From contig NC_020541.1 in NCBI RefSeq assembly GCF_000230695.2, positions 248,001-312,000 on the forward strand: a stretch of DNA of 64,000 nucleotides, written 5' to 3'. The translations under genes and the position numbers were made by a program. The notes beneath the pieces were generated by a model that searched no databases, was not told the DNA's origin, and saw nothing but the letters and a program-made list of their open reading frames with translations. The DNA comes from Rhodanobacter denitrificans (lineage in GTDB: Bacteria > Pseudomonadota > Gammaproteobacteria > Xanthomonadales > Rhodanobacteraceae). Positions 1,745 to 17,843 of this stretch are shown piece by piece. The stretch's first letter is position 1, and each line of letters opens with the position of its first letter.

Positions 1745-3067
1745 ATGACAACAACGAGTGGCGCCGAAAGCGATCCCATTTTGCGCGCGCGCGGCGAGGT
1801 GATGGTGCACCGCGCGCAGGCGGCGGAAGCGCTGTACCGCAAGGCGCTCGAAACGCAGCCGGACAACGCGGAAGCGCTGAACTTCGTTGCGATGTGCGAG
1901 CTGGGTCGGGGCGAGTTTGACAGCGCCCGCGAGCACCTCGAAAAGGCCGTGCACATCGACCCGGAGGAAGCCAATTTCCGCAAGAACCTCGGCATCCTGC
2001 AGCTGGCACTGGGCCACGCGCAGGATGCCATCGACACCTTCGATCAAGTGATCGCGATGGATCCGAAGGAGCTCTCGGCGCCGCTGCATCGGGCGGCCGC
2101 GCTGGAACAGCTGGGCAGCACCTACGACGCTACGGCGGCGTACTACCACGCTATCGCTACCGCGCAGGCGGCGTTTAGCTGGCGTAACCGCAACACTACG
2201 CCACCGGTGCTGCAGCCGGTGGTGCGGCACGCCATCGATTACATTCAGCGCAACCAGCAGCAGATTTTCATGGAACTCATGCAACCGGTGCGCGCGCAGT
2301 ACGGAGCCGCAGCACTTGCGCGCGTGGAGCAGGGCCTTGCCATTTACCTCAAGCACGCAGCGGCGCAATACCCCGATCCGCGGCAAAGTTGCGCGTTTTT
2401 CTACATACCGGGCCTGTCCGCCGAACCGATGCTGGATGCCGCGCACATGCCAGGCATGGTGGCGCTGGCGACCGCCGGCGACACCTGGCTGGCCGAGCTG
2501 GATACAGCTGCCGCCGAGCAGTTGGGTGAGCCCTATTTCGGCACGCATGACCTGGCGCTGTTGCGTGAACAGGGCGTGCTCGACGGCGACACCGGCGCGC
2601 GGCTCACCGCGTGGTTCCTTTATCGTAATGGCGACCGGGAGCCGGCCGCGCGGCAACATTTGCCACGCTCGTTGGCGGCGGTGGAATCGCTGCCGCAACG
2701 CGTGCAGGTGGAGAACCTCGGCCCCAACGTGTATTTCGCCACGCTTGCTCCCGGTACGCATATCTTGCCAAGCCGTGGCATCACCAACGCCCGGGTCAAC
2801 ATGGAGATTCCTCTGCAAGTGGACGGCCGTTGCGTGCGCAGCGTTGCCGGTCATGAGGAAACCTGGCGCATGGGGGCGTGCGTGGCGTACGACGGCAGCT
2901 TTGCGCATGAATTATGGAACCACGGCCCTGGCCCGTGCACGGCCCTGGTGCTGGACGCCTGGCACCCGGAGCTGAGTGCGGCCGAACGCGCGGCGTTGCC
3001 CCTGCTGTTCGAGGGCATCAGTCAATTTCATATGGCAGCGGGTGTGGAGCCGCCGTTTGGCAATTAG
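1745..3067 (+). CDS. TPR protein with degenerate aspartyl/asparaginyl beta-hydroxylase domain
   Basis: A 440-residue cytosolic protein. Residues about 15-165 contain three TPR-like helical pairs (AEALYRKALETQPDNAEAL, and similar units ending DPEEANF and DPKELSA). The C-terminal 180 residues show the aspartyl/asparaginyl beta-hydroxylase (AspH) fold: TNARV, AYDGSFAHELWNHG and DAWHPELSAAERAALP. The usual first metal-ligand motif PHTGxTN reads PSRGITN, and other 2-oxoglutarate contacts are replaced (see findings), so hydroxylase activity is doubtful. Start chosen at ATG 1745 because upstream codons of the frame overlap the divergent gene's leader and look non-coding. The next gene follows after 35 bp and is probably co-transcribed. 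Confidence 0.75.
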   Translation: MTTTSGAESDPILRARGEVMVHRAQAAEALYRKALETQPDNAEALNFVAMCELGRGEFDSAREHLEKAVHIDPEEANFRKNLGILQLALGHAQDAIDTFDQVIAMDPKELSAPLHRAAALEQLGSTYDATAAYYHAIATAQAAFSWRNRNTTPPVLQPVVRHAIDYIQRNQQQIFMELMQPVRAQYGAAALARVEQGLAIYLKHAAAQYPDPRQSCAFFYIPGLSAEPMLDAAHMPGMVALATAGDTWLAELDTAAAEQLGEPYFGTHDLALLREQGVLDGDTGARLTAWFLYRNGDREPAARQHLPRSLAAVESLPQRVQVENLGPNVYFATLAPGTHILPSRGITNARVNMEIPLQVDGRCVRSVAGHEETWRMGACVAYDGSFAHELWNHGPGPCTALVLDAWHPELSAAERAALPLLFEGISQFHMAAGVEPPFGN

Positions 3068-3102
3068 CGGGCGGCTGCCCAACGCCACGCCACGAAACCA
3101 CC

Positions 3103-3510
3103 ATGAGCGCCAACCAACCTTCGCACGTGAAACTTGATCCGCAACCCCCGTGGGCGCGCTTTCAGGACATCATCGTGCAACTGGATACCGATGCGCTGAT
3201 CGCCGTGGGGATCGAAACCATGGCCGAGCTGACCGGTGCCACCCATGTCAACGCGCGCGCCCGGGCCGTGGATGCCGATGGCAACACGCTGCGCGACGCG
3301 GCCGGTTTGCCTGTCACTACGCAGGTCAGCCATCCCTACGAGACGTCCGACCTCACTGCGAACGGTCTACGTGTGGTCGATTTGCAGCGTGATTGTGTAC
3401 GCGTGGTGCTGGGCGAGCCGACCGTACATTTCTTCATCGGCGCCGATACGGCCGAATGCCGGGCGAGGGCATCGATCCGCATGCGTCTCGCGCGGGCACA
3501 GGATGCGTAA
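3103..3510 (+). CDS. hypothetical protein, 135 aa
   Basis: I do not recognise this protein. It has no signal peptide or membrane helix. The central region (INARARAVDADGNTLRDAAG-like, then a stretch ending VVLGEPTVHFFIGADTAE) suggests a small beta-rich domain. It starts 35 bp after the TPR/hydroxylase-fold gene on the same strand, so the two are likely one operon and may work together. ATG 3103 is the only start in a sensible position; the upstream extension of the frame runs antiparallel through the previous gene and is a shadow. Confidence 0.55.
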   Translation: MSANQPSHVKLDPQPPWARFQDIIVQLDTDALIAVGIETMAELTGATHVNARARAVDADGNTLRDAAGLPVTTQVSHPYETSDLTANGLRVVDLQRDCVRVVLGEPTVHFFIGADTAECRARASIRMRLARAQDA

Positions 3511-3606
3511 GGCGGGCAGCTGCAGGCCGCGCCGCGCGTCGAGACGGGATGCATGCGCAACCTCGATCGACCGTGGCGGAAACTTTCGTCATCCCAAGCG
3601 GGCACT

Positions 3607-4155
3607 TCAGTCGGGTGGCCTCATAGAAATGAAAAAGCACACCCACAATGCGAAAATGCAAAAGAGACCAGGCACGATGAGCCACACCTTTCTTGTAACG
3701 AACAGCCGCTGCATTAGCGCAGTGGCTCCAACCAGCTGCAAGAAGAATCCCCATCCTGGCACGCATTGCCAGAAGTTGATTGGCGCGACCAACAACAATG
3801 ATTGACTAGGTTTGGAGGGATCGTAGTGCACCGTCACGCGGTCACCGAACGACAAGTGCGCCAAGTGGTCACGGGGCCACTGGGGATCGGTAGAGCCATT
3901 CAGCGAAGGGCCATGCATCAGATCCAAGTAGCCAATATTGTGGCCCTTATGATCTACGCCTTGAACTTGGTACGCATAGACGAGTTTTGGCCAATAACGA
4001 CCACCAACCTGATTTACTTGTGCCACCTCAACGACTCCGGAAGTGGTTGGCCAGGTCAGACTTGCTGCCGCATGCGTGTATTCGACGTATCCAGCTATTA
4101 GCGCAATAGCTATTGTGCCTAGCCAAAGTAACAACCAAATTCCCAACTTTCGCAT
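3607..4155 (-). CDS. DUF3592-type membrane protein
   Basis: A 182-residue membrane protein. One transmembrane helix near residues 5-25 (LGIWLLLWLGTIAIALIAGY) is followed by an extracytoplasmic domain with the DUF3592 pattern: SGVVEVAQV, KLVYAYQVQG, then GDRVTVHYDPSKPSQSLL. Two hydrophobic segments close the protein. DUF3592 function is unknown. The start was moved to ATG 4155 because AGGGGGG precedes it at good distance and the long upstream extension lacks coding character. The GC content is lower than in the flanking core genes. Divergent from the lipoprotein gene at 4366. Confidence 0.7.
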   Translation of the reverse strand: MRKLGIWLLLWLGTIAIALIAGYVEYTHAAASLTWPTTSGVVEVAQVNQVGGRYWPKLVYAYQVQGVDHKGHNIGYLDLMHGPSLNGSTDPQWPRDHLAHLSFGDRVTVHYDPSKPSQSLLLVAPINFWQCVPGWGFFLQLVGATALMQRLFVTRKVWLIVPGLFCIFALWVCFFISMRPPD

Positions 4156-4365
4156 CCATCCCCCCTGCTTCCGCCATTCTGGCAAAGGCCTCTGGCCATG
4201 AAGTCCATGATCGCATATCAGGTAGGAGCTGATGTGCTGAGTGATATTCTTGGCACCGACGGCGGCGGCGTTCGTCGCTGGCCCGTTGGCATGCGCGCTC
4301 GACCCGAAGCAGGCGTTTTCGCGTCGACAAGTCGCCACATTTCGGCCAAGCAGAGGGAACAGCGG

Positions 4366-4953
4366 ATGCGTTACATCGTCGTAGTCGTCATGGCATGGAT
4401 GTTGAGTGCGTGTGCCTCCGTCGCACCGGCATGTCGCGGGCAGCAATTCGGTGCGATCAAGGTTGAACCAGTCGGCGTAACAGGCAAAGTCTTCGGACTT
4501 CCGCCTGAGATCCCTGAGATCACGCGTGGCATGGCCTTTGAGTCTTCTGGCTTCAGCTGCGGATCCACTGTGGCAGCGGATATCGAACGCCGAGTGGCGT
4601 ACTCGGCTAGGGATTGTTCAAAGGAAGGCTCTGAACCTCTCCCCGAGGCTCCCGCCCCATCGGACAAGTTCGCTGCGAGTTTCACTCGTACGGAGAGCGG
4701 TGTCACCCATATCATCGTGGTACGTTGGGTCAAACTCAGCGAATCCGACGTAGCTAGGCTGGTGTGCGCGGGTAACGCCGTGTGGACCGCAAAATCTAAA
4801 TTTCGAGAGTATGTGGTGCCGCCGCACTCCGTATCTTACGTACGGCTACGCGATCAACAAAGCTACAAGGATCAGGGAGGCGCCACCGAAATGGGCCCAG
4901 AGGCTAAAGAATTGATCCGGGCTCTTGAGCACGTGGCCCCCGCGAACCGCTGA
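4366..4953 (+). CDS. hypothetical lipoprotein
   Basis: A 195-residue protein beginning MRYIVVVVMAWMLSAC, a lipoprotein signal peptide whose lipobox (L-S-A-C) makes Cys16 the lipidated residue after signal peptidase II. The mature part has no domain I recognise; it contains four cysteines after the lipobox (AC, SC, DC and VC contexts) that could form disulfides in the periplasm. ATG 4366 is preceded by AGAGGGAAC, a plausible ribosome-binding site. The ORF extends further upstream but without coding character. It sits alone between the divergent DUF3592 gene and a non-coding stretch. Confidence 0.65.
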   Translation: MRYIVVVVMAWMLSACASVAPACRGQQFGAIKVEPVGVTGKVFGLPPEIPEITRGMAFESSGFSCGSTVAADIERRVAYSARDCSKEGSEPLPEAPAPSDKFAASFTRTESGVTHIIVVRWVKLSESDVARLVCAGNAVWTAKSKFREYVVPPHSVSYVRLRDQQSYKDQGGATEMGPEAKELIRALEHVAPANR

Positions 4954-5056
4954 ATCACTATGCCGCTCTTATCGCAGTGATTGGCATTCACCTGTTTTGA
5001 TCAAAATGCTTGCATTCGGTGAATTTGTCTCCGATTTCTAATGTCGGCTTCCGCCG

Positions 5057-5299
5057 ATGGTTGCCCTTGCAGTGCTGGTGATGGCCGGGCAAGCTGCTAC
5101 GGGCATAGGTCGACCCGAAGCGGACCTTGCGAACAGAACGGCGGAATGACTTGATGGAGCGGAAGCCGTGGATGAAGAAACATCGACTTTAGAAGCGGTG
5201 TTCCTAGGTAAAGTGCGGGCGGCGCTCGACAACTTGTTTGAGCGCACACGAGCCAAGGACGAGTTGACACCTGCCGCCGACGCGAAGCAGCTAAAGTAA
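5057..5299 (+). pseudogene. possible decayed small ORF with in-frame TGA
   Basis: From ATG 5057 an 81-codon frame reads a signal-peptide-like MVALAVLVMAGQAATG, then about 14 residues, an in-frame TGA at 5147-5149, and continues in the same frame with 49 residues of protein-like, charged helix (EAVFLGKVRAALDNLFERTR) to TAA 5297-5299. The part after the stop looks coding, so this may be a gene inactivated by a nonsense mutation, or two unrelated stretches. No ribosome-binding site is obvious. I cannot name it. It lies between the lipoprotein gene and the tRNA. Confidence 0.3.
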
Positions 5300-5358
5300 C
5301 TCCGGACTCTAAACCGTCCCGCTACTCAAAGCGGGGGGCGTCGTGCTTTCAACGAGAT

Positions 5359-5387
5359 CATAAAGTGGCCAAAGTGGCCACTTTATG
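5359..5387 (-). terminator. hairpin downstream of the tRNA gene
   Basis: A perfect 12-bp inverted repeat (CATAAAGTGGCC at 5359-5370 and its complement at 5376-5387) with a 5-nt loop, 35 nt past the tRNA 3' end in the direction of tRNA transcription. There is no clean U-tract, so the termination role is inferred from position. A second, smaller GC stem (CCCGCT / AGCGGG, 5318-5335) follows. Confidence 0.45.
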
Positions 5388-5422
5388 GTTTCTCGCACAA
5401 AGCCTGGGCTTGCGCAAATTCG

Positions 5423-5498
5423 TGGTGGGCCCACCAGGACTCGAACCTGGAACCAAAGGATTATGAGTCCTCTGCTCTAACCATTGAGCTATAGGCCC
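5423..5498 (-). tRNA. tRNA with CAU anticodon, probably tRNA-Ile2 (lysidine type)
   Basis: A complete 76-nt cloverleaf on the minus strand including encoded CCA: acceptor GGGCCTA/TGGGCCC, D-arm GCTC...GAGC, anticodon stem GAGGA/TCCTT with loop CTCATAA, T-arm CCAGG-TTCGAGT-CCTGG. The anticodon is CAT. The body (GGTTAGAGCA, then GACTCATAATC, then TTGGT) resembles bacterial tRNA-Ile2, whose C34 is converted to lysidine by TilS to read AUA. Elongator tRNA-Met is the alternative. It lies 193 bp downstream of the autotransporter stop on the same strand. Confidence 0.9.
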
Positions 5499-5691
5499 AT
5501 GCAAGGGCGGCAGTTTACCGTAGGTGCGGATGGCGTAGCGGCGATTGGGCGGCGCCGGAGGAGGCGCGGGGCGGACTGCATGCCGGTCGGCGGTGAGTTT
5601 CGAGTCGGCCGCCGGACCTCGCCCGGACGATCAGGATCGGCGCGTACCGTGTGGACGGCGGCAACGACGTTCGTCGCTGCCGCCGTGCCGG

Positions 5692-8600
5692 TCACGGTGG
5701 CAGCGTCTTCTGTACGCTGAGCAGGATGCTCTGGTTGTCGCGGCTCGTGTTGTCCAGCTGGTTCTGGTATTCCGCGCGCAGCGACCAGCCCTTGAGCGTC
5801 TGCAGCGCGATGCCTGCGCCGAGCAAGGTGTGGTTGCGGGATTGGCGGGCCAGCGTGGCCTGGTACAGCGGACCGGACGGCAGGTCCGCATAGCGCATCG
5901 CCGCCTGGCTGGAGCCTTGCAAGTCGTGGCCGAACTCCGCGCGCAGCTGCGGCGCCCATACGCCGTAGTCGCGCTGGACCGTCCATCGCGCCAGCAGGCC
6001 CACGGTGGCGGTGCTGGTCTTGACGGTCTGGTCCCGGTAGCTCAGTGCGAACACGGCGTCGCCGGTTTCGGTGTAGCCGTCGAGCGTCGCGCGGGCGATG
6101 TCCAGCCTGCCGTAGGGCGTGAGCAGCATGTCGTCCGCCTGGTGCCGGTAGCCCACCGAGAACGAGGCGAACCACTGCTTGCCGTCGCGGCTGCCGCGCA
6201 CCGTGTTGCCGTTGTCGGTGACGAAGCGGCGCGCGTCGAACTGCAGCCACTGGTAGCCGACCAGCGCGTCCATGTAGGCCGATTCACCGGGCCGGTAACT
6301 GCCGTAGGCGGCGACGTTGTAGCTGTCCACGGTGCTGCGGCTGCCATGCTGGCCGATGTCGGAAGCATCGTGGCCGTAGCCGACGCCCAGGCCCAGCGCG
6401 AGCGACTGGGTCAGCTGCTTGTCCGCGCCCAGGCTGAGGCCCGAGGTGGTGAAGTCGACGCCGTTGTAGCTGGCGCCGGGCTTCAGCTTGCCGAAGTTCA
6501 TCGCGCCACCGGCCCAGAAGGCAAGGCCGTCCGGCGCGCCGCTACTGGAGGCTGCAGGAACGGTTGCCGGGGCGTCTGCGGGCGCCAGGAAGGGATCGCC
6601 GCCGCCGCCCATCACCTGCTGCTGCAGGCCGGCTAGCGTGTCGCTGCGCCGCTGGCTGCTGGCGGAACTCATGGTGATGCCGTTGCTGAAGCCGGCGCGG
6701 CTGCCGCTGTCGTGCAGGCTTTCCAGGCGGCGCTGGAAGTTGCCGATCTGGCCCATCGCCATGCGGCGTGCCGCCTCGGCCTGGGCTTCCAGCACGCCCA
6801 GCACTTCGGCGTTCTTCGACGGATCGCCGCGCAGCATGACGGTAACGTCGACCGTGCCCGGTGCGGAGGTAGCGAACGCGTTGCTCAGCGTATAGGCGAT
6901 CTGCGCCACGCCATCGAAGCTGGCGGCGGAGGTGAACGCCAGCGCGTAGCCACCGCCGCCGGTGGATACGATGGTGGCCGAACCGGCGTTCGCCGGCGAA
7001 ATGGACACCACATTCGCAGCCGTGAACGGACCGCCGTGCGCTTGCGCGACAAGGTCGACCTGTACCGTGGTGCCGGCGTTCGCCGTTGCCGTCAGCGCGG
7101 CTGCCACCGGACGCGGGTTGACCGTCACCGTGACGTGGGCCGGTGGCGAGGTGCCGAAGACGTTGCTCAGCGTGTAGTCGAAGCCGAACGTGCCCGAGGC
7201 GTTCGCGGCGGCGGTGTAGACGATGTCGGTGCCCTGTGTCGTCGCCGTACCCGAGGCTGGCGTGTTCACCACCGCAGCGGCGGTGAATGGACCGTTGCTT
7301 GCACCCGTGGCCGCATGGATCGTGACCGACGCGCCGGCCAGTACTGAGACGCTCTGCGCCGCCGCGACCGGCACGGCCAGCGGCGTCACCGAGACGCTGA
7401 CCGTGGCCGGCGACGAAATCCCGCCAGGGCCAGTCGCGGTGTAGGTGAAGCTGTCGCTGCCGAAGAAGCTGGCCGACGGCGTGTACACCACATGCAGGCC
7501 GCTGACCGCCGCCGTGCCGTGCGCAGGCGCCTGCGCCACCGCGATGCTGGTGATCGGGCCGGCGTCATTGGCCGTGACCGCGATGGTGACCGGCGAGTTG
7601 GCCGGTGTCGTGGCGGTGTCGTTCACCGTGACCGGCACGGGCTGGTCGATGCCCAGCGAGTAGGCCTGGCTGCCGGTGAAGCCGAAGCCGTCGGTTGCGC
7701 TGACGGTGAAGTTGTAGTTGCCGGCCGTGGTCGGCGTGCCGGACACCGTGCCGGCGCTGCTCAAGGCGATGCCCGGCGGCAGCGCGCCGGAGGCGAGGCT
7801 GTAGGTATAGCTGCCGTTGCCGCCGCTCGCGCCCAGCGCCTGACTGTAGGCGACGTTGGCCTGGCCGTTCGGCAACGTGGCCGGGGTGATGGTGATGGTC
7901 GGTGCGGCCACGGTGAACGTGTAGGCCTGGCTGCCGCTGAAGCCGAGGCCATCGGTCGCGGTGACGGTGAAACTGTAGTTGCCCACCGTGGTCGGCGTGC
8001 CGGACACCGTGCCCGAGCTGCTCAAGGCGATGCCGGGCGGCAGTGCGCCAGAGGCGAGGCTGTAGGTGTAGCTGCCGCTGCCGCCGCTGGCGCTCAACGC
8101 CTGGCTGTAGGCGACGCCGCCGCCGCCCGCCGGCAGCGTCGCCGGCGTGATCGCGATGGTCGGCGCGGCCACGGTGAGCGTGTAGATCCGGCTGCCCGAG
8201 AACGGTGCGCTGGTGCCAGTGCTGCTGTCAGTGGCCCTGAGCGTGAAGTTGAAGCTGCCCGCTGCCGTCGGCGTGCCGGACAACGTGCCTGTGGACGACA
8301 GTGCCAGACCCGACGGCAACGTGCCGGCGACGACGGAATAGGTATACGGTGCCGTGCCGCCGCTGGCGGTGAAGGCATGAGTGTAGGGGGTTTCCGCTGT
8401 GGCGTTGGCCAGCGCGCCTGGGTCGAGCACCACCGTGCCCGCGCCGACCGTGACGCTGTAGGCCTGGCTGCCGGTGAAGCCACTGCCGTCCGTTGCGGTG
8501 ATGGTGAAGTTATAGGTTCCCGCAGCTGTGGGCGTGCCGCTCATGACGCCGGAGTTGACGTCCAGCGACAGGCCTATCGGCAGTGCGCCGGAGCTCACAT

Positions 8601-11600
8601 TGTAGGTAAAGGTGGCTGGTTGGCCTTCCGATGCGGTGATGGTCTGGTTGTACGCGACGCCGACCGCCGGTGCCGGCAGGATGCCCGGCGACAGCGTGAT
8701 GGTCGGCACGGCCACGGTGAACGTGTAGGCCTGGCTGCCGGTGAAGCCGAAGCCGTCGGTCGCGGTGATGGTGAAGTTGTAGTTGCCGGCCGTGGTCGGC
8801 CTACCGGACACGGTGCCGGCGCTGCCCAAGGCGATGCCGGGCGGCAGCGCGCCGGAGGCGAGGCTGTAGATGTAGCTGCCGTTGCCGCCGCTCGCGCCCA
8901 GCGCCTGACTGTAGGCGACGTTGGCCTGGCCGTTCGGCAACGTGGCCGGGGTGATGGTGATGGTCGGTGCGGCCACGATGAAGGTATAAGCCCGGCTGCC
9001 GGTGAAGCCGAAGCCGTCGGTCGCGCTGACGGTGAAGTTGTAGTTGCCGGCCGTGGTCGGCGTGCCGGACACCGTGCCCGAGCTGCTCAAGGTGACGCCG
9101 GGCGGCAGCGCGCCGGAGGCGAGGCTGTAGGTATAGCTGCCGTTGCCGCCGCTCGCGCCCAGCGCCTGACTGTAGGCGACGTTGGCCTGGCCGTTCGGCA
9201 ATGTGGCTGGGGTGATGGTGATGGTCGGCGCGGCCACGGTGAACGTGTAGGCCCGGCTGCCGGTGAAGCCGAAGCCGTCGGTCGCGCTGACGGTGAAGTT
9301 GTAGTTGCCGGCCGTGGTCGGCGTGCCGGACACGGTGCCGGCGCTGCTCAAGGTGATGCCGGGCGGCAGCGCGCCGGAGGCGAGGCTGTAGGTGTAGCTG
9401 CCGTTGCCGTTGCCGCCGCTCGCGCCCAGCGCCTGACTGTAGGCGACGTTGGCCTGGCCGTTCGGCAACGTGGCCGGGGTGATGGTGATAGTCGGTGCGG
9501 CCACGATGAAGGTATAAGCCCGGCTGCCGGTGAAGCCGAAGCCGTCGGTCGCGCTGACGGTGAAGTTGTAGTTGCCCACCGTGGTCAGCGTGCCGGACAC
9601 CGTGCCCGAGCTGCTCAAGGTGATGCCGGGCGGCAGCGCGCCGGAGGCGAGGCTGAAGGTGTAGCCGCCGCTGCCGCCGGCGGCACTCAAGCTCTGGCTA
9701 TAGGCAGCGCCACCGGTGCCCGCCGGCAGTGTGGTCGGCGTGATCGCGATGGTCGGTGCGGCCACGGTGAGAGCGTAGCTCTGGCTGGCCGTGAATGGCG
9801 CGCCGGTGCCGGTCGAGCTGTCCGTGGCCTGCACGGTGAAGTTGAAGCTGCCGGCGGCGGTGGGCGTGCCGGACAGCACGCCGCCGGAGGATAGCGCCAG
9901 GCCCGCCGGCAGCGCGCCCGCCGTCAGCGTGTAGGCATACGGCGCGGTGCCGCCGTTGGCGGTGAAGGTGTGCGTGTAGGGCGTTTCCGCCGTGGCGTTG
10001 GCCAGCGCCGCCGGGGCCAGCACCACCGTGCCGGCGCCGACCGTGACGCTGTAGGCCTGGCTGCCGGTGAAGCCGCCGCTGTCAGTCGCGGTGAGCGTGA
10101 AGTTGAAACTGCCCCCCGCGGTCGGCGTGCCGCTGATCACTCCCGAGTTGGCGCCCAGCGACAGGCCCGTCGGCAGCAGGCCGGAGCTCACGTTGTAGGT
10201 GAAGGTGGATGGGCTGGCTTCGGATGCGGTGATCGCCTGGCTGTACGCGTTACCGACCGCCGGTGCCGGTAGGGTGCCCGGCGACAGCGTGATGGTCGGC
10301 GCGGCCACGGCGAGGGTGTAGTTGCCCGACACGGTGAAGGGCGCGCCGGTGCCGGTCGAGCTGTCCGTGGCCCGCACGGTGAAGTTGAAGTTGCCCGCCG
10401 CGGTCGCCGTGCCGGACAGCGCGCCCGCGGACGACAGCGTCACGCCCGGCGGCAGGGCGCCCGCGACGATCGCATAGCTGTATGGCGCGGTACCGTTGGC
10501 GGCGGCGAACGTGGCGCTTGCCGGCGAGCCGGCGGTGCCGTTGATGGTCGTCCCGGATGCGGGCGCCAGCGTCAGCGTGGGTGCGCCCACGGTGATGCCG
10601 TAGGCGCGGCTGCCCGTGTAGGGGCCAGTGCCGGTACTGCTGTCGGTCGCGGTAATGACGAAATTGAAGCTGCCGGCGGCCGTCGGCGTGCCGGTGATCG
10701 CGCCGGTGCTGCTGACGGTCAGGCCAGGCGGCAGCGCGCCGGCGGTGACGGCATAGGCATACGGAGCGGCGCCGCCGGATGCCGTCACGTTCTGCGAATA
10801 CGCCGCGGCCACGCCAGGGTTGGTCAGCGAGGCAGGCGCAATCGAAATAGTCGGGGCGTTCACCGTCAGCGCCAGCGAGCCGCTGGTGGCGCTGAACGGA
10901 CCGGTGCCGGTGCTGCTGTCGGTGGCGGTCACGGTGAAATTGAAGCTTCCACCCGCGGTGGCCGTACCCGACAGCGAGCCGTTGCTGGCCAGCGTGATGC
11001 CCGCCGGCAGGCTGCCGGAGGCGATGGCGTAGGTGTACGGCGCCGTGCCGCCGCTCGCGCTGGCGAGCGACTGGCTGTAGGCCGCGCCGACGGTGGCCGC
11101 CGGCGGACTGGCCGGCGTGTAGCTGATGGTCGGCGGCGGTACGGTGATGGTCACCGTGGCCGGTGATGACGTGCCGCTGGCGTTGGTGCCGGTATAGGTG
11201 AAGCTGTCCGGGCCGGCGTAGCCGGCGGCGGGAGTGTAGGTGATCGAGGTGCCGCTGGCGGTGGCGGTGCCGTGCGCAGCCTGTGTAGCGACGGCGACCG
11301 AGGCCGGCGCACCGCCGGTGAAGTTGAGGGTGATCGGGTTGCTGGTACTGCCGTAGGCCACCGTGGCACTCACCGGGTTGGCGACCGGGGGCGGCAGGTT
11401 CTGCACGGTGATGGACAGGTTGTTGGCCGAGAAGTACGGCCCGGGGGCGCCGCTGCTGTCCGTGACGCGCACGGTGAAGTTGGTAGTGCCGCTCGCAGTG
11501 GGCGTGCCGCTGATGGTGCCGTTGCTGGCCAGGGTCAGGCCGGCTGGCAGCGTGGTGCCGCCGTCCAGCGTGTAGGTGTACGGCGGCGTGCCGCCGGCGG

Positions 11601-12342
11601 CGGTCAGCGTGAAACCGTAGGGTCGGTTGATGACCGCCGCCGTGGGCGTGTTGGTGACGACGACGCTCGGCGCACCGATGGAGACCGAATAGCTCGCCGT
11701 ACCAGTGACGCTGGCGCTGTCGGTGGCCGTGATCGAGAACGCATAGCTGCCCTGCGTGGTCGGCGTGCCGGAGATCGTGTTGCCGCTGAGTGTCAGGCCC
11801 GGCGGCAGGGAAGAACCGCTGGTGACGGCGAAGGTGTACGGCGCGGTGCCGCCGGTGGCGCTCAGGGTCTGGGTGGCGTAGCTGACGGCTACGGTGCCCG
11901 AGGGCATCGTCGCCGGCGAGAGCGTGATGGGCGAGGTCTTCGGGGCGATGTGTACCGTCACCGTGACGAAATTGATGCCCGAGCCATCGTCGTACCGGAA
12001 GGTATCCGTCGTGGCGCCGTCGTTGTTGTTGGAGTAGCTGATCTGCGAGGCCGCGTTGCTGGTGACTGTCGCCGTGCCGTGGTTTGCCAGCGACGTGATG
12101 TTGCCGATGCCGAAACCGGGGCTGGCGCTGCACGCCGTGACGTCCATGCTGATCGTCGTGCCGGGCGCCATCGGCGATCCGGAGGAGGCATTGGACGGCG
12201 TATAGGCCGTGCAGACCGCACGCGACAGGCCCGGCAGCGCCAGCATGCCGCACACCAGCAGGAAACTTGTCCACCGGCCGAATACGCTACGGCCGAGCCC
12301 ATGGCGCATCGCGTCGCGATGCTTCGACTCCGGATGCCACAT
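5692..12342 (-). CDS. giant Ig-repeat autotransporter (type Va-like)
   Basis: A 2216-residue predicted surface adhesin. Signal peptide: FLLVCGMLALPGLSRA preceded by a charged N-region. The passenger carries about 15 putative-Ig (He_PIG-like) repeats, each with the signature LPPGLTLSS..G..SGTPTAAGSFNFTVxATDS, then cadherin-like VNDTATTPANSPVTIAV and related modules. The last ~270 residues are an autotransporter beta-barrel (FWAGGAMNFGKLKPG...GLSLGADKQLT...LSVQKTLPP) with alternating strands. Start set at ATG 12342, preceded by AGGGGA at good spacing; a longer frame upstream is unsupported. It is divergent from the tail-collar triplet across 283 bp. Near-identical repeats occupy the central third (see repeat entry). 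Likely function is surface attachment or cell-cell contact, inferred from architecture only. Confidence 0.88.
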   Translation of the reverse strand: MWHPESKHRDAMRHGLGRSVFGRWTSFLLVCGMLALPGLSRAVCTAYTPSNASSGSPMAPGTTISMDVTACSASPGFGIGNITSLANHGTATVTSNAASQISYSNNNDGATTDTFRYDDGSGINFVTVTVHIAPKTSPITLSPATMPSGTVAVSYATQTLSATGGTAPYTFAVTSGSSLPPGLTLSGNTISGTPTTQGSYAFSITATDSASVTGTASYSVSIGAPSVVVTNTPTAAVINRPYGFTLTAAGGTPPYTYTLDGGTTLPAGLTLASNGTISGTPTASGTTNFTVRVTDSSGAPGPYFSANNLSITVQNLPPPVANPVSATVAYGSTSNPITLNFTGGAPASVAVATQAAHGTATASGTSITYTPAAGYAGPDSFTYTGTNASGTSSPATVTITVPPPTISYTPASPPAATVGAAYSQSLASASGGTAPYTYAIASGSLPAGITLASNGSLSGTATAGGSFNFTVTATDSSTGTGPFSATSGSLALTVNAPTISIAPASLTNPGVAAAYSQNVTASGGAAPYAYAVTAGALPPGLTVSSTGAITGTPTAAGSFNFVITATDSSTGTGPYTGSRAYGITVGAPTLTLAPASGTTINGTAGSPASATFAAANGTAPYSYAIVAGALPPGVTLSSAGALSGTATAAGNFNFTVRATDSSTGTGAPFTVSGNYTLAVAAPTITLSPGTLPAPAVGNAYSQAITASEASPSTFTYNVSSGLLPTGLSLGANSGVISGTPTAGGSFNFTLTATDSGGFTGSQAYSVTVGAGTVVLAPAALANATAETPYTHTFTANGGTAPYAYTLTAGALPAGLALSSGGVLSGTPTAAGSFNFTVQATDSSTGTGAPFTASQSYALTVAAPTIAITPTTLPAGTGGAAYSQSLSAAGGSGGYTFSLASGALPPGITLSSSGTVSGTLTTVGNYNFTVSATDGFGFTGSRAYTFIVAAPTITITPATLPNGQANVAYSQALGASGGNGNGSYTYSLASGALPPGITLSSAGTVSGTPTTAGNYNFTVSATDGFGFTGSRAYTFTVAAPTITITPATLPNGQANVAYSQALGASGGNGSYTYSLASGALPPGVTLSSSGTVSGTPTTAGNYNFTVSATDGFGFTGSRAYTFIVAAPTITITPATLPNGQANVAYSQALGASGGNGSYIYSLASGALPPGIALGSAGTVSGRPTTAGNYNFTITATDGFGFTGSQAYTFTVAVPTITLSPGILPAPAVGVAYNQTITASEGQPATFTYNVSSGALPIGLSLDVNSGVMSGTPTAAGTYNFTITATDGSGFTGSQAYSVTVGAGTVVLDPGALANATAETPYTHAFTASGGTAPYTYSVVAGTLPSGLALSSTGTLSGTPTAAGSFNFTLRATDSSTGTSAPFSGSRIYTLTVAAPTIAITPATLPAGGGGVAYSQALSASGGSGSYTYSLASGALPPGIALSSSGTVSGTPTTVGNYSFTVTATDGLGFSGSQAYTFTVAAPTITITPATLPNGQANVAYSQALGASGGNGSYTYSLASGALPPGIALSSAGTVSGTPTTAGNYNFTVSATDGFGFTGSQAYSLGIDQPVPVTVNDTATTPANSPVTIAVTANDAGPITSIAVAQAPAHGTAAVSGLHVVYTPSASFFGSDSFTYTATGPGGISSPATVSVSVTPLAVPVAAAQSVSVLAGASVTIHAATGASNGPFTAAAVVNTPASGTATTQGTDIVYTAAANASGTFGFDYTLSNVFGTSPPAHVTVTVNPRPVAAALTATANAGTTVQVDLVAQAHGGPFTAANVVSISPANAGSATIVSTGGGGYALAFTSAASFDGVAQIAYTLSNAFATSAPGTVDVTVMLRGDPSKNAEVLGVLEAQAEAARRMAMGQIGNFQRRLESLHDSGSRAGFSNGITMSSASSQRRSDTLAGLQQQVMGGGGDPFLAPADAPATVPAASSSGAPDGLAFWAGGAMNFGKLKPGASYNGVDFTTSGLSLGADKQLTQSLALGLGVGYGHDASDIGQHGSRSTVDSYNVAAYGSYRPGESAYMDALVGYQWLQFDARRFVTDNGNTVRGSRDGKQWFASFSVGYRHQADDMLLTPYGRLDIARATLDGYTETGDAVFALSYRDQTVKTSTATVGLLARWTVQRDYGVWAPQLRAEFGHDLQGSSQAAMRYADLPSGPLYQATLARQSRNHTLLGAGIALQTLKGWSLRAEYQNQLDNTSRDNQSILLSVQKTLPP
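7640..10310 (-). repeat. tandem and higher-order Ig-domain repeats inside the autotransporter gene
   Basis: Units of 261 bp (87 codons) repeat with near identity: equivalent points fall at 8710, 8971, 9232 and 9499 (the last step is 267 bp because of a 6-bp GN insertion). A further copy starts at 7906. Four distinct domain types (LSPG.LPAPAVG, GTVVL, IAITP.TLPAG, ITITPATLPNGQ) occur in the same order twice, once as a six-unit block (about 8710-10310, with the last type in three copies) and once as a four-unit block (about 7640-8710). This indicates block duplication plus local tandem expansion. Confidence 0.85.
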
Positions 12343-12625
12343 GACTTGTCCCCTGTTTGCCCGTGTTCCGTTGGGCGGACGCCTGGCGGCGCGTTGTGAA
12401 AGCTGCCGTGGCTCGCGAACGAGCAGCCACGGTACCGGACCTCTTCGCCGGACGGTCGTGAGCCCTGCCTGGCGGTTCTGTCTTTTCCTTTCAGTGCCCC
12501 TCGAGGGCGGCCGCGGCATATTGTGGCTTTGTGCACGAAGAGCTTGTCAAGCCGTCGGGTATGCGCAAGAGTGCGCGGGCCGGCCGGGGACCTGTCGCCG
12601 GAACCATCCAAGGGGAGAATCACTC

Positions 12626-13126
12626 ATGTCGCAACCCTTTCTCGGGCAGGTGATGCCGGTGGCGTTCAACTTTGCGCCCAAGGGATTCGCTTTCTGCAAC
12701 GGCCAGTTGCTGCCGATCAACCAGTATCAGGCGCTGTTCTCGCTGCTGGGTACCCAGTTCGGCGGCAACGGCACAACGAACTTTGCCTTGCCCGACCTGC
12801 GCAGCCGCACCCCGCTGGGTTCCAGCAACGGCACGGATGTCGGCCAGGCCGGCGGCGTCGAGAACGTCGCGCTGTCGAGCGGGCAGATTCCTGCGCACAA
12901 TCACGCCTTCAACGCGAACACCGCCGCGGGCACCACGCGCATTCCCGGCAACGGCGTGCTGGGTGCCGCCGGCTCGCTCAGCATCTACGGCAGCTCCGGT
13001 GGCCCGCAGATTCCGCTGAACGTGCTCGACGACGCTGGGCAGACGCTGCCGCATTCGAACCTGCAGCCATACACGGTGCTGAACTTCTGCATCGCGCTCA
13101 ATGGCATCTTCCCCTCGCGCAGCTGA
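12626..13126 (+). CDS. phage tail-collar-domain protein 1 (MdpB-like)
   Basis: A 166-residue protein with the tail-collar (gp12-like, 'microcystin-dependent protein') pattern: FLGQVMPVAFNFAPKGFAFC, NGQLLPINQYQALFSLLGTQ, FGGNGTTNFALPDLRSRTP, and a C-terminal HSNLQPYTVLNFCIALNGIFP. In phages this fold makes trimeric short tail-fibre tips. Here it is free-standing, without signal peptide or other phage genes. The start has a strong site (AAGGGGAGAA before ATG 12626). First of three paralogues followed by a GNAT gene; the operon is divergent from the autotransporter. Role unknown; a fibre or structural role is inferred from fold. Confidence 0.85.
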   Translation: MSQPFLGQVMPVAFNFAPKGFAFCNGQLLPINQYQALFSLLGTQFGGNGTTNFALPDLRSRTPLGSSNGTDVGQAGGVENVALSSGQIPAHNHAFNANTAAGTTRIPGNGVLGAAGSLSIYGSSGGPQIPLNVLDDAGQTLPHSNLQPYTVLNFCIALNGIFPSRS

Positions 13127-13140
13127 CCGGAGCTCCCGCC

Positions 13141-13671
13141 ATGTCCACACCTTACGTTGGCGAGATCCGCCTGTTTCCCTACAACTTCGCACCGAATGGC
13201 TGGTTCGACTGCGACGGCCGCCTGCTGCCCATCTCGGAATACGATGTCCTGTTCAGCCTGGTCGGCACCGTCTACGGTGGCGACGGCGTGAATACCTTTG
13301 CGCTGCCCGACCTGCGCGGCCGCGTGCCGATCCACCAGGGTGCGGGGCCGGGCATGGGAACCTACGTGCTGGGCCAGCTGGCCGGCACCGAGACGGTCAC
13401 GCTGCTGCCGAACCAGCTGCCGGCCCACAGCCATGTCTTCTACGCGGCGGATTCGGCGGCAAGCTCCGCCGCGCCGTCCGCCACACTCCAGCTGGGGGCC
13501 GTCAGCGGAGACACGCTGTACACGAACAGCACCGCAGGCATCGCCAGCGGCGACCTGGCCGCGACGGCCGTCGGTTCCGTGGGGGGCAGTCAGCCGCACG
13601 ACAACACCATGCCCACGCTGACCGCGCGTTTCTGCATCGCCTGGGCCGGCGTCTACCCGTCGCAGGGTTGA
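13141..13671 (+). CDS. phage tail-collar-domain protein 2 (MdpB-like)
   Basis: A 176-residue paralogue of the preceding gene, 14 bp downstream. It keeps YVGEIRLFPYNFAPNGWFDC, DGRLLPISEYDVLFSLVGTV, YGGDGVNTFALPDLRGRVP and the ending PHDNTMPTLTARFCIAWAGVYP. It has a longer Ser/Ala-rich variable segment (about residues 100-130), where phage collar proteins vary their tip. A shared length, conserved ends and variable middle with its two neighbours suggest they could form a hetero-oligomer. No secretion signal is visible. Confidence 0.85.
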   Translation: MSTPYVGEIRLFPYNFAPNGWFDCDGRLLPISEYDVLFSLVGTVYGGDGVNTFALPDLRGRVPIHQGAGPGMGTYVLGQLAGTETVTLLPNQLPAHSHVFYAADSAASSAAPSATLQLGAVSGDTLYTNSTAGIASGDLAATAVGSVGGSQPHDNTMPTLTARFCIAWAGVYPSQG

Positions 13672-13702
13672 GCGCCGTCGACCGACTACAAGGACATCAT
13701 TC

Positions 13703-14236
13703 ATGAGCGATCCCTTCATTGGCGAGATCCAGATCTACGGCTTCAACTTCGCGCCCCAGAACTGGGCCCTGTGCCAGGGCCAGTTGATGCCGATCCAGCA
13801 GAACACGGCGCTGTTCTCGCTGCTCGGTATCCAGTTCGGCGGCAACGGCACCACCAATTACCAGTTGCCGAACTTCACCGGCAACGTGGCGTGTGGCCAG
13901 GGTCAGGGCGCCGGGCTGACGCCACGCATGGTCGGCGAAACCTTCGGCTCGGACAGCGTCACCCTGCTGCTCAATGAGATGCCGGCACATGCCCACGGCG
14001 CGCGCGTCTACAACCAGCCGACGGCCGCCAATCGGGCCGGCGTTCCGGCCAGCGGCGATGCCGTCATCACGCCGCAGTCGGTGGCGATGCTGACCAATAC
14101 CAACGCGGTCAACACCACCTTGCCGATCCAGACGGTCGGCATGACCGGTGGCGGCCAGCCGCACGAAAACCGGCAGCCGTACCTGACGCTGAATTTCTGC
14201 ATCGCGCTGTCGGGGGTGTTTCCTCAGCGCCCGTGA
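13703..14236 (+). CDS. phage tail-collar-domain protein 3 (MdpB-like)
   Basis: A 177-residue third paralogue: FIGEIQIYGFNFAPQNWALC, QGQLMPIQQNTALFSLLGIQ, FGGNGTTNYQLPNFTGNVAC and the closing GQPHENRQPYLTLNFCIALS. The LPDLRGR box of the other two is altered to LPNFTGN. An ATG with a preceding AAGGACATC fixes the start. Its TGA overlaps the GTG start of the GNAT gene (GTGA), so the acetyltransferase is translationally coupled to this structural triplet. Confidence 0.85.
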   Translation: MSDPFIGEIQIYGFNFAPQNWALCQGQLMPIQQNTALFSLLGIQFGGNGTTNYQLPNFTGNVACGQGQGAGLTPRMVGETFGSDSVTLLLNEMPAHAHGARVYNQPTAANRAGVPASGDAVITPQSVAMLTNTNAVNTTLPIQTVGMTGGGQPHENRQPYLTLNFCIALSGVFPQRP

Positions 14237-14790
14237 GCGCAGCCGGGACGTTGAACTTTCCCCCGAGCCGGGCGGCCTGGCTGCCCGCCTCGGGGGAAAG
14301 CCTTCCGGCAGGGGTGGGCTGGCGCGACGCGCATGACCAGGATCTGCCGTTCCTCCGCCGCCTCTACGGCGAGGTGCGCGCCGCCGAACTGGCCGCGGTG
14401 CCGTGGCCCGACGCCGTGCGGCAGGCTTTCCTGGACAGCCAGTTCGCACTGCAGCACCTGCACTACGCCACGCATTTCCAGCCGGCGGATTACCTGGTGA
14501 TCGAGGATGCGGGGAGGCCCATCGGCCGCCTGTACCTGTACCGCGACCCGCGGGAGGTCCATGTCATCGACATCGCGCTGCTCGCCGCAGCGCGAGGACG
14601 CGGCATCGGTTCGGCGCTGCTGCGGCAGGTGCAGCAAAGTACGCTGCGCGATGGCCTGGGCAGCGTCATGCTGCATGTCGAGCAGCGCAATGCCGCGGCG
14701 CGCAGGCTCTACGAACGCCTGGGATTCGCCGTCGAGGAGGGCATCGGCGGCCACCTGCGCATGCGCTGGATCGCCGCCATGCTCAGTTGA
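14233..14790 (+). CDS. GNAT family N-acetyltransferase
   Basis: A 185-residue acetyl-CoA-dependent acyltransferase. The N-terminal 30 residues are Pro/Ala-rich; then the GNAT fold follows with DYLVIEDAGRPIGRLYLYR (motif C/D), the acetyl-CoA loop in LLAAARGRGIGSALLRQVQQ (R/Q-x-x-G-x-G/A type) and a motif B region NAAARRLYERLGF. GTG 14233 overlaps the stop of the third tail-collar gene by 4 nt. Substrate unknown; genomic coupling suggests it modifies the collar proteins or their ligand. Its 3' end overlaps the convergent DUF6916 gene by 8 nt. Confidence 0.8.
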   Translation: MSAAGTLNFPPSRAAWLPASGESLPAGVGWRDAHDQDLPFLRRLYGEVRAAELAAVPWPDAVRQAFLDSQFALQHLHYATHFQPADYLVIEDAGRPIGRLYLYRDPREVHVIDIALLAAARGRGIGSALLRQVQQSTLRDGLGSVMLHVEQRNAAARRLYERLGFAVEEGIGGHLRMRWIAAMLS

Positions 14791-15076
14791 ACAGCGCCTG
14801 GTAGATGAAGCCATCGCGGTCGCGCGCGATCGGCACCAGGAAGATGCCGAACTCGCCCACGCCGTCGTGGCGCATGGTGTAGGTGCGCTGCGGGAAAAGC
14901 ACCGCCGATTCGTGGCGGAACAGCAGGGAGAATGGCTCGCGCACCATGCCGGCGACCGGCTGGTACGGCAGTGGCCGCGCCTCGACCAGGACGAAGGGCG
15001 TGCTCATCTGGTCGATCTCGACCCTGAAGGTCTCGTTGAGATGGCCCGCGAAGTGGTCCAACCGAAAAAATTGCAT
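14783..15076 (-). CDS. DUF6916-like protein
   Basis: A 97-residue protein without signal peptide. The layout (LDHFAGHLNETFRVEIDQ, then FVLVEARPLP, then REPFSLLFRHESAVLFPQ and RTYTMRHDGVGEFGIFLVPI, ending YQALFN) matches my recollection of DUF6916, small proteins habitually encoded beside tail-collar genes in Xanthomonadaceae. It looks like a compact beta-barrel, possibly an assembly partner. It is convergent with the GNAT gene and overlaps its end by 8 nt. Confidence 0.65.
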   Translation of the reverse strand: MQFFRLDHFAGHLNETFRVEIDQMSTPFVLVEARPLPYQPVAGMVREPFSLLFRHESAVLFPQRTYTMRHDGVGEFGIFLVPIARDRDGFIYQALFN

Positions 15077-15205
15077 GACGTTCCCCCTGGCCGTCGAGCA
15101 TGCCCAAGCCGGGCCGGGCTTTCAACACGTGTCCGGTGCGCGCCGTCGCTGAAGGACGAGCCGCGCCTTCCTGGCGAGCCGGTCGTGCGTTCCCGGGGCG
15201 ACAAC

Positions 15206-15233
15206 AAGAAGCCCCGCGTCGGCGGGGCTTCTT
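15206..15233 (-). terminator. rho-independent terminator after rpoD
   Basis: A 12-bp perfect stem (AAGAAGCCCCGC at 15206-15217 and its complement at 15222-15233) with a 4-nt loop, followed in the minus direction by a T-rich TTCTTGTTGT. It lies about 20 bp past the rpoD stop codon. Confidence 0.85.
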
Positions 15234-15253
15234 CGTCATGCCGGCGTCGCCGC

Positions 15254-17131
<1,878 letters not shown>

Positions 17132-17163
17132 TCACCGACCGCCGCAGGGTTCAAGAACCGGAC

Positions 17164-17192
17164 ATTATAGCGATGTGCTGCTTTTTTGACCA
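17164..17192 (-). promoter_or_regulatory. sigma-70 promoter of rpoD
   Basis: On the minus strand a perfect -10 TATAAT (17164-17169) lies 17 bp from a -35-like TGGTCA (17187-17192, two mismatches to TTGACA). It is 33 bp from the rpoD ATG. An A-rich tract in the spacer adds curvature. Confidence 0.6.
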
Positions 17193-17298
17193 GTTTTCAA
17201 GTGGAAAAAGATCGCTGGAGGACACGCAAAAATCGCGCCAGACCGCCGTATTGCCGTGCATCGCCGGGCTCGATCCGGCGAGGCGTCGCACCCGCCGT

Positions 17299-17739
17299 TC
17301 AGCCGGTGTCGAGCCGGAAGGTCACCGGGCCGTCGTTCACCAGCCGGATCACCATATGGGCGCCGAAGCGCCCGGTTTCCACCCCCGGGTGTGCGGCGCG
17401 GGCCAGTTCCAGCAGCCGCTCGAACCAGCGCCGGCCGTGCTCGGGCGACGCCGCGCCGGTGAAACTGGGGCGCATGCCGGAGCGGGTGTCGGCGGCGAGG
17501 GTGAACTGGCTGACCAGCAGCAGGTCGCCGCCGGTGTCGGTGAGCGAGCGGTTCATCTTGCCGTCCGCATCGGCGAACACGCGGTAACCGAGCAGGCGCT
17601 CCAGCATGCGCTTCGCCTGCGCCTCGCCGTCGTCGGGTTGCACCGCCACCAGGGCCAGCAGGCCGGGGCCGATCGCGCCGACCGTTTCGTCGCCGACACT
17701 GACGCTGGCGGACAGGACGCGCTGGATCAGGGCGATCAT
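17299..17739 (-). CDS. dtd: D-aminoacyl-tRNA deacylase
   Basis: A 146-residue cytosolic enzyme that removes D-amino acids (and glycine) mischarged onto tRNA. Family landmarks: [15 protein letters not shown] at the N-terminus, [20 protein letters not shown] (the SQFTLxADT...RPSFT active-site strip, with Thr) and the C-terminal [13 protein letters not shown] carrying the Gly-cisPro cross-subunit motif. The start was set at ATG 17739, matching the family N-terminus; the 13-residue upstream extension is dropped. It is divergent from the acyltransferase gene. Confidence 0.95.
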
Positions 17740-17843
17740 TCTCTGGCGGCGGGGCGAGGCGAAGGACCGGCAAAGCATACGAGGTTGCCGGTTCGGCGCA
17801 AGTCGGCGGGTCGCGGCGCGCCGCCCGCTACACTGGCGACCCT

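Follow-up and report, generated by a model that had tools for sequence, protein, structure and literature searches.

Tail-collar triplets with a giant stalk, a GNAT and DUF6916: a candidate non-viral surface system recurring across bacterial phyla

Three free-standing tail-collar paralogues, a giant Ig-repeat autotransporter, a GNAT acetyltransferase and a DUF6916 protein form a gene set in Rhodanobacter denitrificans that recurs widely in other bacteria. We interpret the set as a conserved non-viral surface system. Its collars, with GNAT and DUF6916 as helpers, would form a heterotrimeric head that acts beyond the cytoplasm in concert with a giant stalk; we place the probability of this reading at roughly 65%. 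The genes lie in a 64,000-nucleotide stretch of DNA (the window; Table 1). The novelty lies in the combination of these genes in a cell, as no account of a collar triplet with stalk, GNAT or DUF6916 occurred among the literature matches listed; the head alone has a viral counterpart in the published excerpts discussed below.

Table 1. Features of the locus, numbered from the first letter of the window
Feature	Position	Strand	Source
Giant surface stalk: autotransporter of 2216 aa with Ig repeats (He_PIG/Big_9)	5692..12342	-	Pfam
Passenger stretch holding all 15 He_PIG domains	7654..11901	-	genome-wide He_PIG search
Autotransporter beta-barrel PF03797	5764..6519	-	Pfam
Divergent intergenic region, if stalk start = 12342	12343..12625	.	
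Collar 1, 166 aa, leaderless, PF07484	12626..13126	+	
Collar 2, 176 aa, leaderless, PF07484	13141..13671	+	
Collar 3, 177 aa, leaderless, PF07484	13703..14236	+	
GNAT acetyltransferase, GTGA-coupled to collar 3	14233..14790	+	
DUF6916 protein, 97 aa, predicted all-beta, six strands	14783..15076	-	
tRNA-Met, border of module on one side	5423..5498	-	
rpoD, border of module on other side	15254-17131	-	

The stalk is a type Va (monomeric) autotransporter by its C-terminal PF03797 barrel (residues 1942-2193 of 2216; E 7e-53; 180.4 bits against a cut-off of 26), and Pfam also found 15 He_PIG and four Big_9 stretches in it. A sequence-only reading of the window had described this protein as divergent from the collars across 283 bp. 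The divergence was borne out, and the distance holds only for a start at 12342; the reading frame extends open up to an ATG at 12519, so the gap varies with the chosen start. No sigma-70 consensus was found in the divergent region as delimited in Table 1. The same reading had noted three tandem collar paralogues of near-equal length, and all three matched PF07484 (97.3, 93.8 and 83.4 bits for collars 1-3 against a cut-off of 24; E at most 1.1e-23 each). The GTGA coupling of the GNAT gene was likewise confirmed, its start overlapping the collar-3 stop, as was the DUF6916 gene (PF21880; 101.1 bits against a cut-off of 27). The latter's minus-strand orientation had been left out; the gene is convergent with GNAT, with an 8 bp overlap. 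The sole He_PIG gene, sole three collar genes and sole DUF6916 gene of the genome all lie at this locus. Their co-location exceeds chance, as each of the three families is confined to the locus in this genome and the set recurs widely. None of six proteins matched a known anti-phage defence system in PADLOC.

Collar loci were found in 12 phyla, and triplets in 11 of these. Exactly three collars were present at 72 of 80 sampled loci (11 phyla), another number at the remaining eight, and a GNAT gene at 61 of the 80 (11 phyla). Conserved co-occurrence had been proposed as a check on the system; the set does remain linked in further genomes and phyla, and it is absent as a block from one close relative, which lacks the whole module save 43 codons of DUF6916. 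The proposed survey was framed on Xanthomonadales and a He_PIG autotransporter. Conservation of the set stood, yet the set is tied neither to Xanthomonadales nor to He_PIG domains or autotransporters. He_PIG was rejected as a marker of the system, the domain being found in 107 of 200 genomes of the order. Within family f1, 14 of 15 genomes with collars carried it versus 7 of 19 without (Fisher p 0.001, kinship ignored). Proteins of the collars' orthologous group (COG4675) appear among those detected in soil metaproteomes, as far as the excerpt of that report goes (PMC5579227).

The collars fall into three distinct classes. Class labels changed 11 times on the collar tree versus 44.0 times with shuffled labels, and 0 of 200 shuffles were as low; this is a quick tree of 31 chosen loci, with 9 of 90 inner branches starred and 47 open, and support for c3 as a group within the clade of the window is only 14. 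At two loci (L055 and L080) the order of c1 and c2 is swapped, with both classes still present. Two proteins (L210 and L211) consist of three collars in one permuted chain, followed by a PEPxxWA-CTERM tail in L210 and an RTX tail in L211, while L212 is one collar-collar-GNAT ORF. An HxH motif occurs in 408 of 410 collars, is lost in L211, and aligns with the HxH of the phage long tail fibre 8kec. T4 gp12 binds metal via histidines; the words 'knitted trimeric metal-binding fold' stand in a title cited in reference lists. The AlphaFold model of a single collar was poor (mean pLDDT 56.4) and is uninformative on the trimer either way. Judging from the sequences and by analogy, the three collars very probably form one heterotrimer with one member of each class. 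This idea, raised by the sequence-only reading, gains independent support from the one-of-each classes, the natural three-collar single chains and the virophage precedent. We rate both the heterotrimer and the whole explanation higher, and two of the rival readings slightly lower, because the published virophage trio is described as a 1:1:1 heterotrimer.

If the leaderless collars were instead cytosolic, for example as a scaffold or regulator, their sole link to the surface stalk would be common regulation. Such a location would fit the signal peptide survey, in which none was seen on collars outside the secreted loci (pattern test of 410 collars; L210-L229 by eye), and the cytoplasmic location given for RhiA of the rhi operon in the excerpted report (PMC2275737). 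However, homologues carry Sec signals (L085, L213, L214, L215, L218 and L219; by eye) or the PEP-CTERM and RTX tails described above. Moreover, the giant partner lies 5' on the same strand at 40 of 101 loci, 5' on the opposite strand at 28, 3' on the same strand at 28 and 3' on the opposite strand at 5, a mixture that common promoter control fails to explain. We regard cytosolic collars as unlikely. Collar action outside the cytoplasm is supported by the Sec-signal relatives, the PEP-CTERM and RTX tails and the surface anchors of many giant partners. A collar protein was reported in the Ruegeria pomeroyi exoproteome, according to the excerpt of that study (PMC4949626); two other roseobacter exoproteome papers named none in their main text. 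At L092, one further signal-pattern match lies before the annotated start.

Leaderless and secreted loci also differ in composition. GNAT is present at 116 of 136 leaderless versus one of seven secreted loci. DUF6916 or a gene of the Tat family occurs at 94 of these leaderless loci and at none of the seven secreted ones, the secreted set being small and drawn from few family codes (f54, f55, f65 and Tateyamaria). The collars themselves show a cysteine switch, with C-x-G in 419 of 426 leaderless versus 0 of 12 secreted cases, and C-P in 0 of 426 versus 11 of 12.

Giant genes are concentrated beside the triplets. At 101 of 128 triplet loci, a reading frame of 1000 residues or more lies within 2 kb, counted as stop-to-stop ORFs with a GC-frame filter rather than as annotated genes. 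The first kb held 97 near ends of giant ORFs in 253 flanks (0.383). Farther out the density was 0.021, both at 2-5 kb (15 near ends over 707 flank-kb) and at 2-7 kb (24 over 1147), which makes the first kb about 18-fold enriched. With flanks that stop at around 9-10 kb, counts in bins past roughly 6 kb are too low; the 2-5 kb bins give equal density. These neighbours often bear their own lineage's surface anchor (autotransporter barrel, SLH, CWB2 or T9SS). The barrel was found on the partner in the window, Sinorhizobium, Phyllobacterium and Ruegeria TM1040, and the partner in Paenibacillus sp. 37 has three SLH domains. Among 57 giant-partner C-termini, 23 matched SLH, 4 T9SS and 1 CWB2; SelO, CPSase and TPR matches also occurred, and some large neighbours are not surface proteins. 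Both the enrichment and the many surface-anchored giants argue against collars that are secreted binders acting alone, with the stalk a separate adhesin co-kept since both serve surface life. Solitary action would account for the 27 of 128 triplets without a large ORF within 2 kb, and for the secreted loci, where no Ig stalk adjoined the collars as far as tested; we consider it quite improbable.

That the locus is what domestication left of a phage tail or tailocin is hardly credible despite PF07484 and the PHROG tail matches, as collar 3 shares at most 34.9% identity with phage records (best 15 of 259 matches), DUF6916 matched no phage record, triplet and GNAT are kept in many phyla, and neither the 10 proteins scanned with PHROGs (1634-17778) nor the nine window neighbours scanned with Pfam (749-22592) included a capsid, sheath, baseplate, lysis or integrase family. 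For these neighbours the earlier statement that the locus is neither prophage nor tailocin thus holds. Records label collar genes as 'phage tail protein', 'tail fiber protein' and also 'microcystin-dependent protein', and genes with any of these labels are easily dismissed as phage debris; here they are part of a conserved cellular set.

The best NCBIfam model for GNAT was RimI (ribosomal protein S18-alanine N-acetyltransferase), an assignment rejected at 54.5 bits against a cut-off of 86.4; GNAT may possibly still work like an N-terminal acetyltransferase. The predicted DUF6916 model was confident (94.5), and no clear relative of it was found. Between collars and GNAT lies a gene slot that is empty at 54 of 80 triplet-GNAT loci. 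Tat-like genes account for 10 of 26 slot genes versus 76 of 8864 control ORFs, and other slot genes, at L063, L067 and L071, combine a match to a DUF6916 profile with twin-arginine motifs recognised by eye. A relationship of the Tat-motif family (L042, L043, L050, L076 and L077) to DUF6916 was rejected (hhalign probability 0.1; E 0.63). No route of export can be seen in the window, where the collars are without signal peptides and no gene fills the slot between collar 3 and GNAT.

In the surface system that we favour, three leaderless paralogues, one per class, would assemble into an ABC head with a putative HxH metal site, a cellular counterpart of the phage or virophage tail-fibre tip minus its shaft. 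GNAT would probably acetylate the N-termini of the cytosolic collars, and DUF6916 would probably be their assembly or export partner. Where the slot gene carries a twin-arginine signal, as in some lineages, folded export by hitch-hiking on Tat would be the likeliest route. The head would then act outside the cytoplasm together with the giant repeat protein, held at the surface by each lineage's own route, and the simplest role for the collars would be that of the head through which an adhesive stalk binds. Adhesion, the target, the route of export, acetylation and attachment of the head to the stalk are elements that we infer. More tentatively, the set might constitute a cross-phylum surface organelle, whose ABC head is assembled and N-acetylated in the cytosol, leaves it already folded through a dedicated pathway for leaderless proteins (DUF6916, sometimes with a Tat-signalled carrier) and docks on a giant anchored stalk. 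Such an organelle would stand as cellular sister to the receptor-binding tips of phages and virophages, and possibly as a source or sink of them. If true, our explanation would describe a new kind of surface machine, pose the new question of how folded leaderless trimers exit the cell, and newly link viral receptor-binding proteins with bacterial adhesins.

Several known systems share parts of this set. Phage tail-fibre tips have the collar fold by profile (T4 gp12, 1ocy, E 9.4e-5; 8kec, E 7.4e-10); unlike them, the set comprises three separate free-standing genes with no shaft, no virion genes and an adjoining cellular stalk. Extracellular contractile injection systems and tailocins likewise place a phage-tail-derived fold on the cell side, but no sheath, tube or baseplate family occurred among the scanned neighbours. 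Fibrillar adhesins, monomeric autotransporters and S-layer-anchored Ig proteins also present an anchored stalk of Ig repeats. None of these families is known to include a collar trio, GNAT or DUF6916.

The rhi operon (rhiABC(D)) of Rhizobium leguminosarum, compared by description rather than sequence, is rhizosphere-expressed and shares the collar domain through RhiB (COG4675; PMC13133039). RhiD is grouped with opacity surface antigens (PMC6969944), while RhiA gave no Pfam match. Unlike the trio, the operon has one collar gene, and the excerpts of these reports describe no GNAT, DUF6916 or giant stalk there. A virophage paper, again in excerpt, names three joined tail-collar ORFs (PMC10385804). 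The tripartite tail of virophage DSLV2 sits on a virus capsid, unlike this set, and a giant anchored stalk, GNAT and DUF6916 are not described for it in the excerpted report. Like this set, by description rather than sequence, it is made of three consecutive collar-domain proteins; these are reported to co-purify and to form, on the evidence of native and SDS-PAGE, negative-stain EM and AlphaFold3, a heterotrimer of 1:1:1 stoichiometry that binds Synechococcus cells (PMC12724248).

Re-examination of the window sequence bore out the coordinates of the sequence-only reading and added the strand of the DUF6916 gene. A whole-genome profile search placed the only collar domains of the 4.2-Mb genome in these three genes; its sole DUF6916 gene is likewise the window copy, and its sole He_PIG gene the stalk, with 15 of 15 domains in one frame.

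Genes of the collar module in the window
Feature	Coordinates	Strand	Remark
Autotransporter (stalk), 2216 residues	5692-12342	-	divergent from collar genes
Collar gene 1	12626-13126	+	
Collar gene 2	13141-13671	+	
Collar gene 3	13703-14236	+	
GNAT	14233-14790	+	GTGA-coupled to collar 3
DUF6916	14783-15076	-	convergent with GNAT

The view that the locus is neither a prophage nor a tailocin stands as far as the neighbours scanned. These are chromosomal genes of ordinary kinds (RpoD, D-Tyr-tRNA deacylase, lipid A acyltransferase, SDR, TonB receptor, TPR-Asp/Asn hydroxylase, a DUF3592 protein), together with some that matched nothing, and phage records reached at most 34.9% identity to collar 3 (best 15 of 259). 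Phage records searched with DUF6916 gave no match, nor did defence-system models match the locus proteins. A TPR plus Asp/Asn beta-hydroxylase protein is encoded upstream of the module (1634-3067); a gene for an aspartyl/asparaginyl beta-hydroxylase is found close to an Azospirillum triplet too (L087, 2808-3845).

Conserved co-occurrence, which the sequence-only reading had put forward for survey, was found within the order. Collars matched in 80 of 200 genomes and DUF6916 in 70 of 200; by our count from the table, 59 of the 80 collar-bearing genomes have exactly three collar matches. The neighbourhoods read were the window's and 40 others, the latter from 39 genomes and picked for a collar or DUF6916 match. 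Exactly three collars stand at 39 of these 41, the exceptions being L073 (two triplets) and L062 (two collars), and GNAT, which was no selection criterion, is present at all 41 (5 kb off in L065). Most commonly, a giant autotransporter is divergent from the collars, or a giant Ig/cadherin protein without a barrel lies upstream on the same strand. In L073 (3462-7763), GNAT and DUF6916 are flanked by the two triplets. Two relatives of the window genome contain He_PIG open frames of 12,110 (G120:C5:233819) and 12,621 residues (G198:C40:178624).

A 24-sequence collar alignment was then compared with genome contigs. The best 80 loci among the matches listed, a sample biased toward the alignment's first sequence (Paenibacillus) and with some short contigs, span 11 phyla. 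Exactly three collars occur at 72 of them (10 phyla), GNAT within 3.5 kb at 61, a DUF6916- or Tat-family gene at 38, and, within 4.5 kb, an ORF of 900 residues or more at 63. The sole Planctomycetota locus among the 80 has six collars, the number seen at one Pirellulaceae locus (L127). Triplets on plasmid records came from Deinococcus, Sinorhizobium, Phyllobacterium, Rhizobium, Aminobacter, Ruegeria, Comamonas, Paenibacillus and others. In gene arrangement the S. meliloti LMB1 plasmid is like the window, down to the autotransporter stalk, except that collar classes 1 and 2 have traded places. Triplets in Azospirillum (L087, 2537-12196) and Deinococcus (L091, 9729-12323) lie near lasso-peptide B2 and PqqD-type genes, which encode RiPP-like enzymes. 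On a Burkholderia anthina plasmid (L097, 2210-16633), a Mor activator, phage tape-measure, annotated tail fibre and giant DUF4347 protein stand in a row, joining a phage-like context to a giant protein.

At 101 of 128 loci with exactly three collars, an ORF of 1000 residues or more lies within 2 kb. Giant ORFs there number 0.383 per flank within the first kb, versus a background of 0.021 per kb (15 in 707 at 2-5 kb; 24 in 1147 at 2-7 kb). At 40 of the 101 loci the giant is on the 5' side and the same strand, at 28 it is 5' and opposite, at 28 3' and same, and at 5 3' and opposite. As its position and strand vary, simple operon inertia fails to explain the linkage.

Judged by their domains, many giant partners are surface proteins, anchored by the means of their own lineage. 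Autotransporter barrels are found on partners in the window, Sinorhizobium, Phyllobacterium and Ruegeria TM1040, the last with Ig domains from other families. The Paenibacillus sp. 37 partner bears three SLH domains, and that of Hymenobacter, at a one-collar locus, a T9SS sorting domain. C-terminal stretches of 320 residues were taken from 57 large neighbours (59 qualified, two running off their contigs); SLH was present in 23, T9SS in 4 and CWB2 in 1, and plainly unrelated neighbours among the 57 were SelO, CPSase and TPR. By eye, the C-termini of three neighbours from actinobacteria (L121, L136, L175) show LxxTG followed by hydrophobic and then basic residues; of these the LPXTG model matches L175 alone (16.7 bits vs 15.9, E 0.0089). 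Also by eye, the L081 partner of Deinococcus starts with what resembles a lipobox.

Collars group by position across genomes, with 11 label changes on a quick tree (93 rows, 31 loci) versus 44.0 when labels were shuffled; none of 200 shuffles gave so low a count. Loci L055 and L080 have classes c1 and c2 in swapped order, one of each class still being present. On our reading of the tree, each of 11 loci in the window's clade has one member per class, the c3 group there having a support of only 14. The candidate metal-site motif HxH occurs in 408 of 410 collars and lines up with that of 8kec, a phage long tail fibre.

Two related natural proteins, from L210 and L211, have three collars in a single chain and are 51% identical to each other. 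In the 507-residue L210 frame, a signal peptide (by eye) is followed by a C-terminal collar segment, two full collars, a third collar missing that segment, and finally a PEPxxWA-CTERM sorting signal (53.2 bits, cut-off 35). The permuted order recurs in L211, which continues into RTX repeats and has no HxH. Such a shift of the final collar segment to the front would be understandable if adjacent chains swapped segments. In L212 (7698-9374, minus strand), collar 2, collar 3 and GNAT share a 617-residue open frame, possibly a Rosetta-stone fusion; it comes from a single genome, with a lost stop codon as the alternative.

From outside, the strongest support comes from a virophage (PMC12724248). 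A trio of consecutive collar-domain tail proteins of this virus was reportedly purified together from E. coli, ran on native and SDS-PAGE as expected of a 1:1:1 heterotrimer, and showed binding to Synechococcus cells in ELISA. This precedent raised our confidence that the three different collars would form a heterotrimer, to a probability of roughly 0.85. The heterotrimer first proposed from the sequence has gained support from one-of-each classes, three-collar chains and this precedent; for the window collars themselves we infer it.

Sec-type signals, assigned by eye without a predictor, occur on collars of L085 (3/3), L213 (3), L214 (2), L215 (2), L218 (2) and L219 (1). A Ruegeria pomeroyi collar protein was reported in the exoproteome (PMC4949626); the main text of two other roseobacter exoproteome papers names no collar protein. 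The comparison drew on 143 loci that carry two or more collars and have 2.5-kb flanks, with L085, L210, L211, L213, L214, L215 and L218 counted as secreted. GNAT accompanies 116 of 136 leaderless versus 1 of 7 secreted loci (a 29-bit opposite-strand match), and a DUF6916- or Tat-family gene 94 of 136 versus none of 7; among 438 collars placeable by pattern, C-x-G occurs in 419/426 leaderless versus 0/12 secreted and C-P in 0/426 versus 11/12. Because the secreted loci are few and related, none of these counts is independent of the others. They suggest that GNAT and DUF6916 belong to a leaderless mode of collar making. Of 383 collar N-termini, 275 begin M-S or M-A and 254 have P at residue 4; they would be plausible GNAT substrates. 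The secreted trio of L085 (1-14592, a Tateyamaria plasmid) adjoins type II secretion pseudopilin genes, an S74 tail-fibre protein and an FG-GAP membrane protein, with no GNAT or DUF6916.

At 26 of 80 loci where a triplet precedes a same-strand GNAT, there is room for a gene between collar 3 and GNAT. A strict twin-arginine pattern occurs in 10 of these 26 slot genes versus 76 of 8864 control ORFs. Slot genes of L063, L067 and L071 are DUF6916 relatives with a twin-arginine leader (by eye); others form a family separate from DUF6916. The Deinococcus L081 slot protein has a periplasmic-binding fold and a twin-arginine motif by eye, and those of L086 and L099 are similarly annotated. Because the slot is empty in the window and twin-arginine motifs occur only in some lineages, we hypothesize that a folded trimer hitch-hikes on Tat in those lineages only.

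A relative of the same genus (G115; RpoD 98% identical) lacks the stalk, collars, GNAT and remainder of DUF6916 in the 18 kb read. On the rpoD side its DNA is 92% identical to the window as far as DUF6916 codon 43; the match resumes only at a tRNA-Met stretch (window 5423-5542), past which the two genomes do not match. The DUF6916 gene, cut after codon 43 and adjoining rpoD (G115:C1 near 210539, L240), is probably a scar; its truncation suggests loss of the module next to tRNA-Met.

In our judgement, the heterotrimer head likely acts outside the cell, and more likely than not it works with the giant stalk; an adhesive or recognition role is somewhat favoured. From linkage and the secreted variants, DUF6916 has about even odds of being an assembly or export partner, and GNAT might, more tentatively, act on collar N-termini.

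We found no account of the bacterial set (trio, stalk, GNAT and DUF6916) in the literature searched, which took in few subscription journals and no bioRxiv preprints. The rhi operon of Rhizobium leguminosarum, for which rhizosphere biology has been reported, has one collar gene, rhiB, versus three here (PMC13133039, PMC6969944). In assembly, the nearest known thing to the collar trio is that of the virophage (PMC12724248). The head alone would resemble something already known, and the novelty would lie in the cellular set as a whole.
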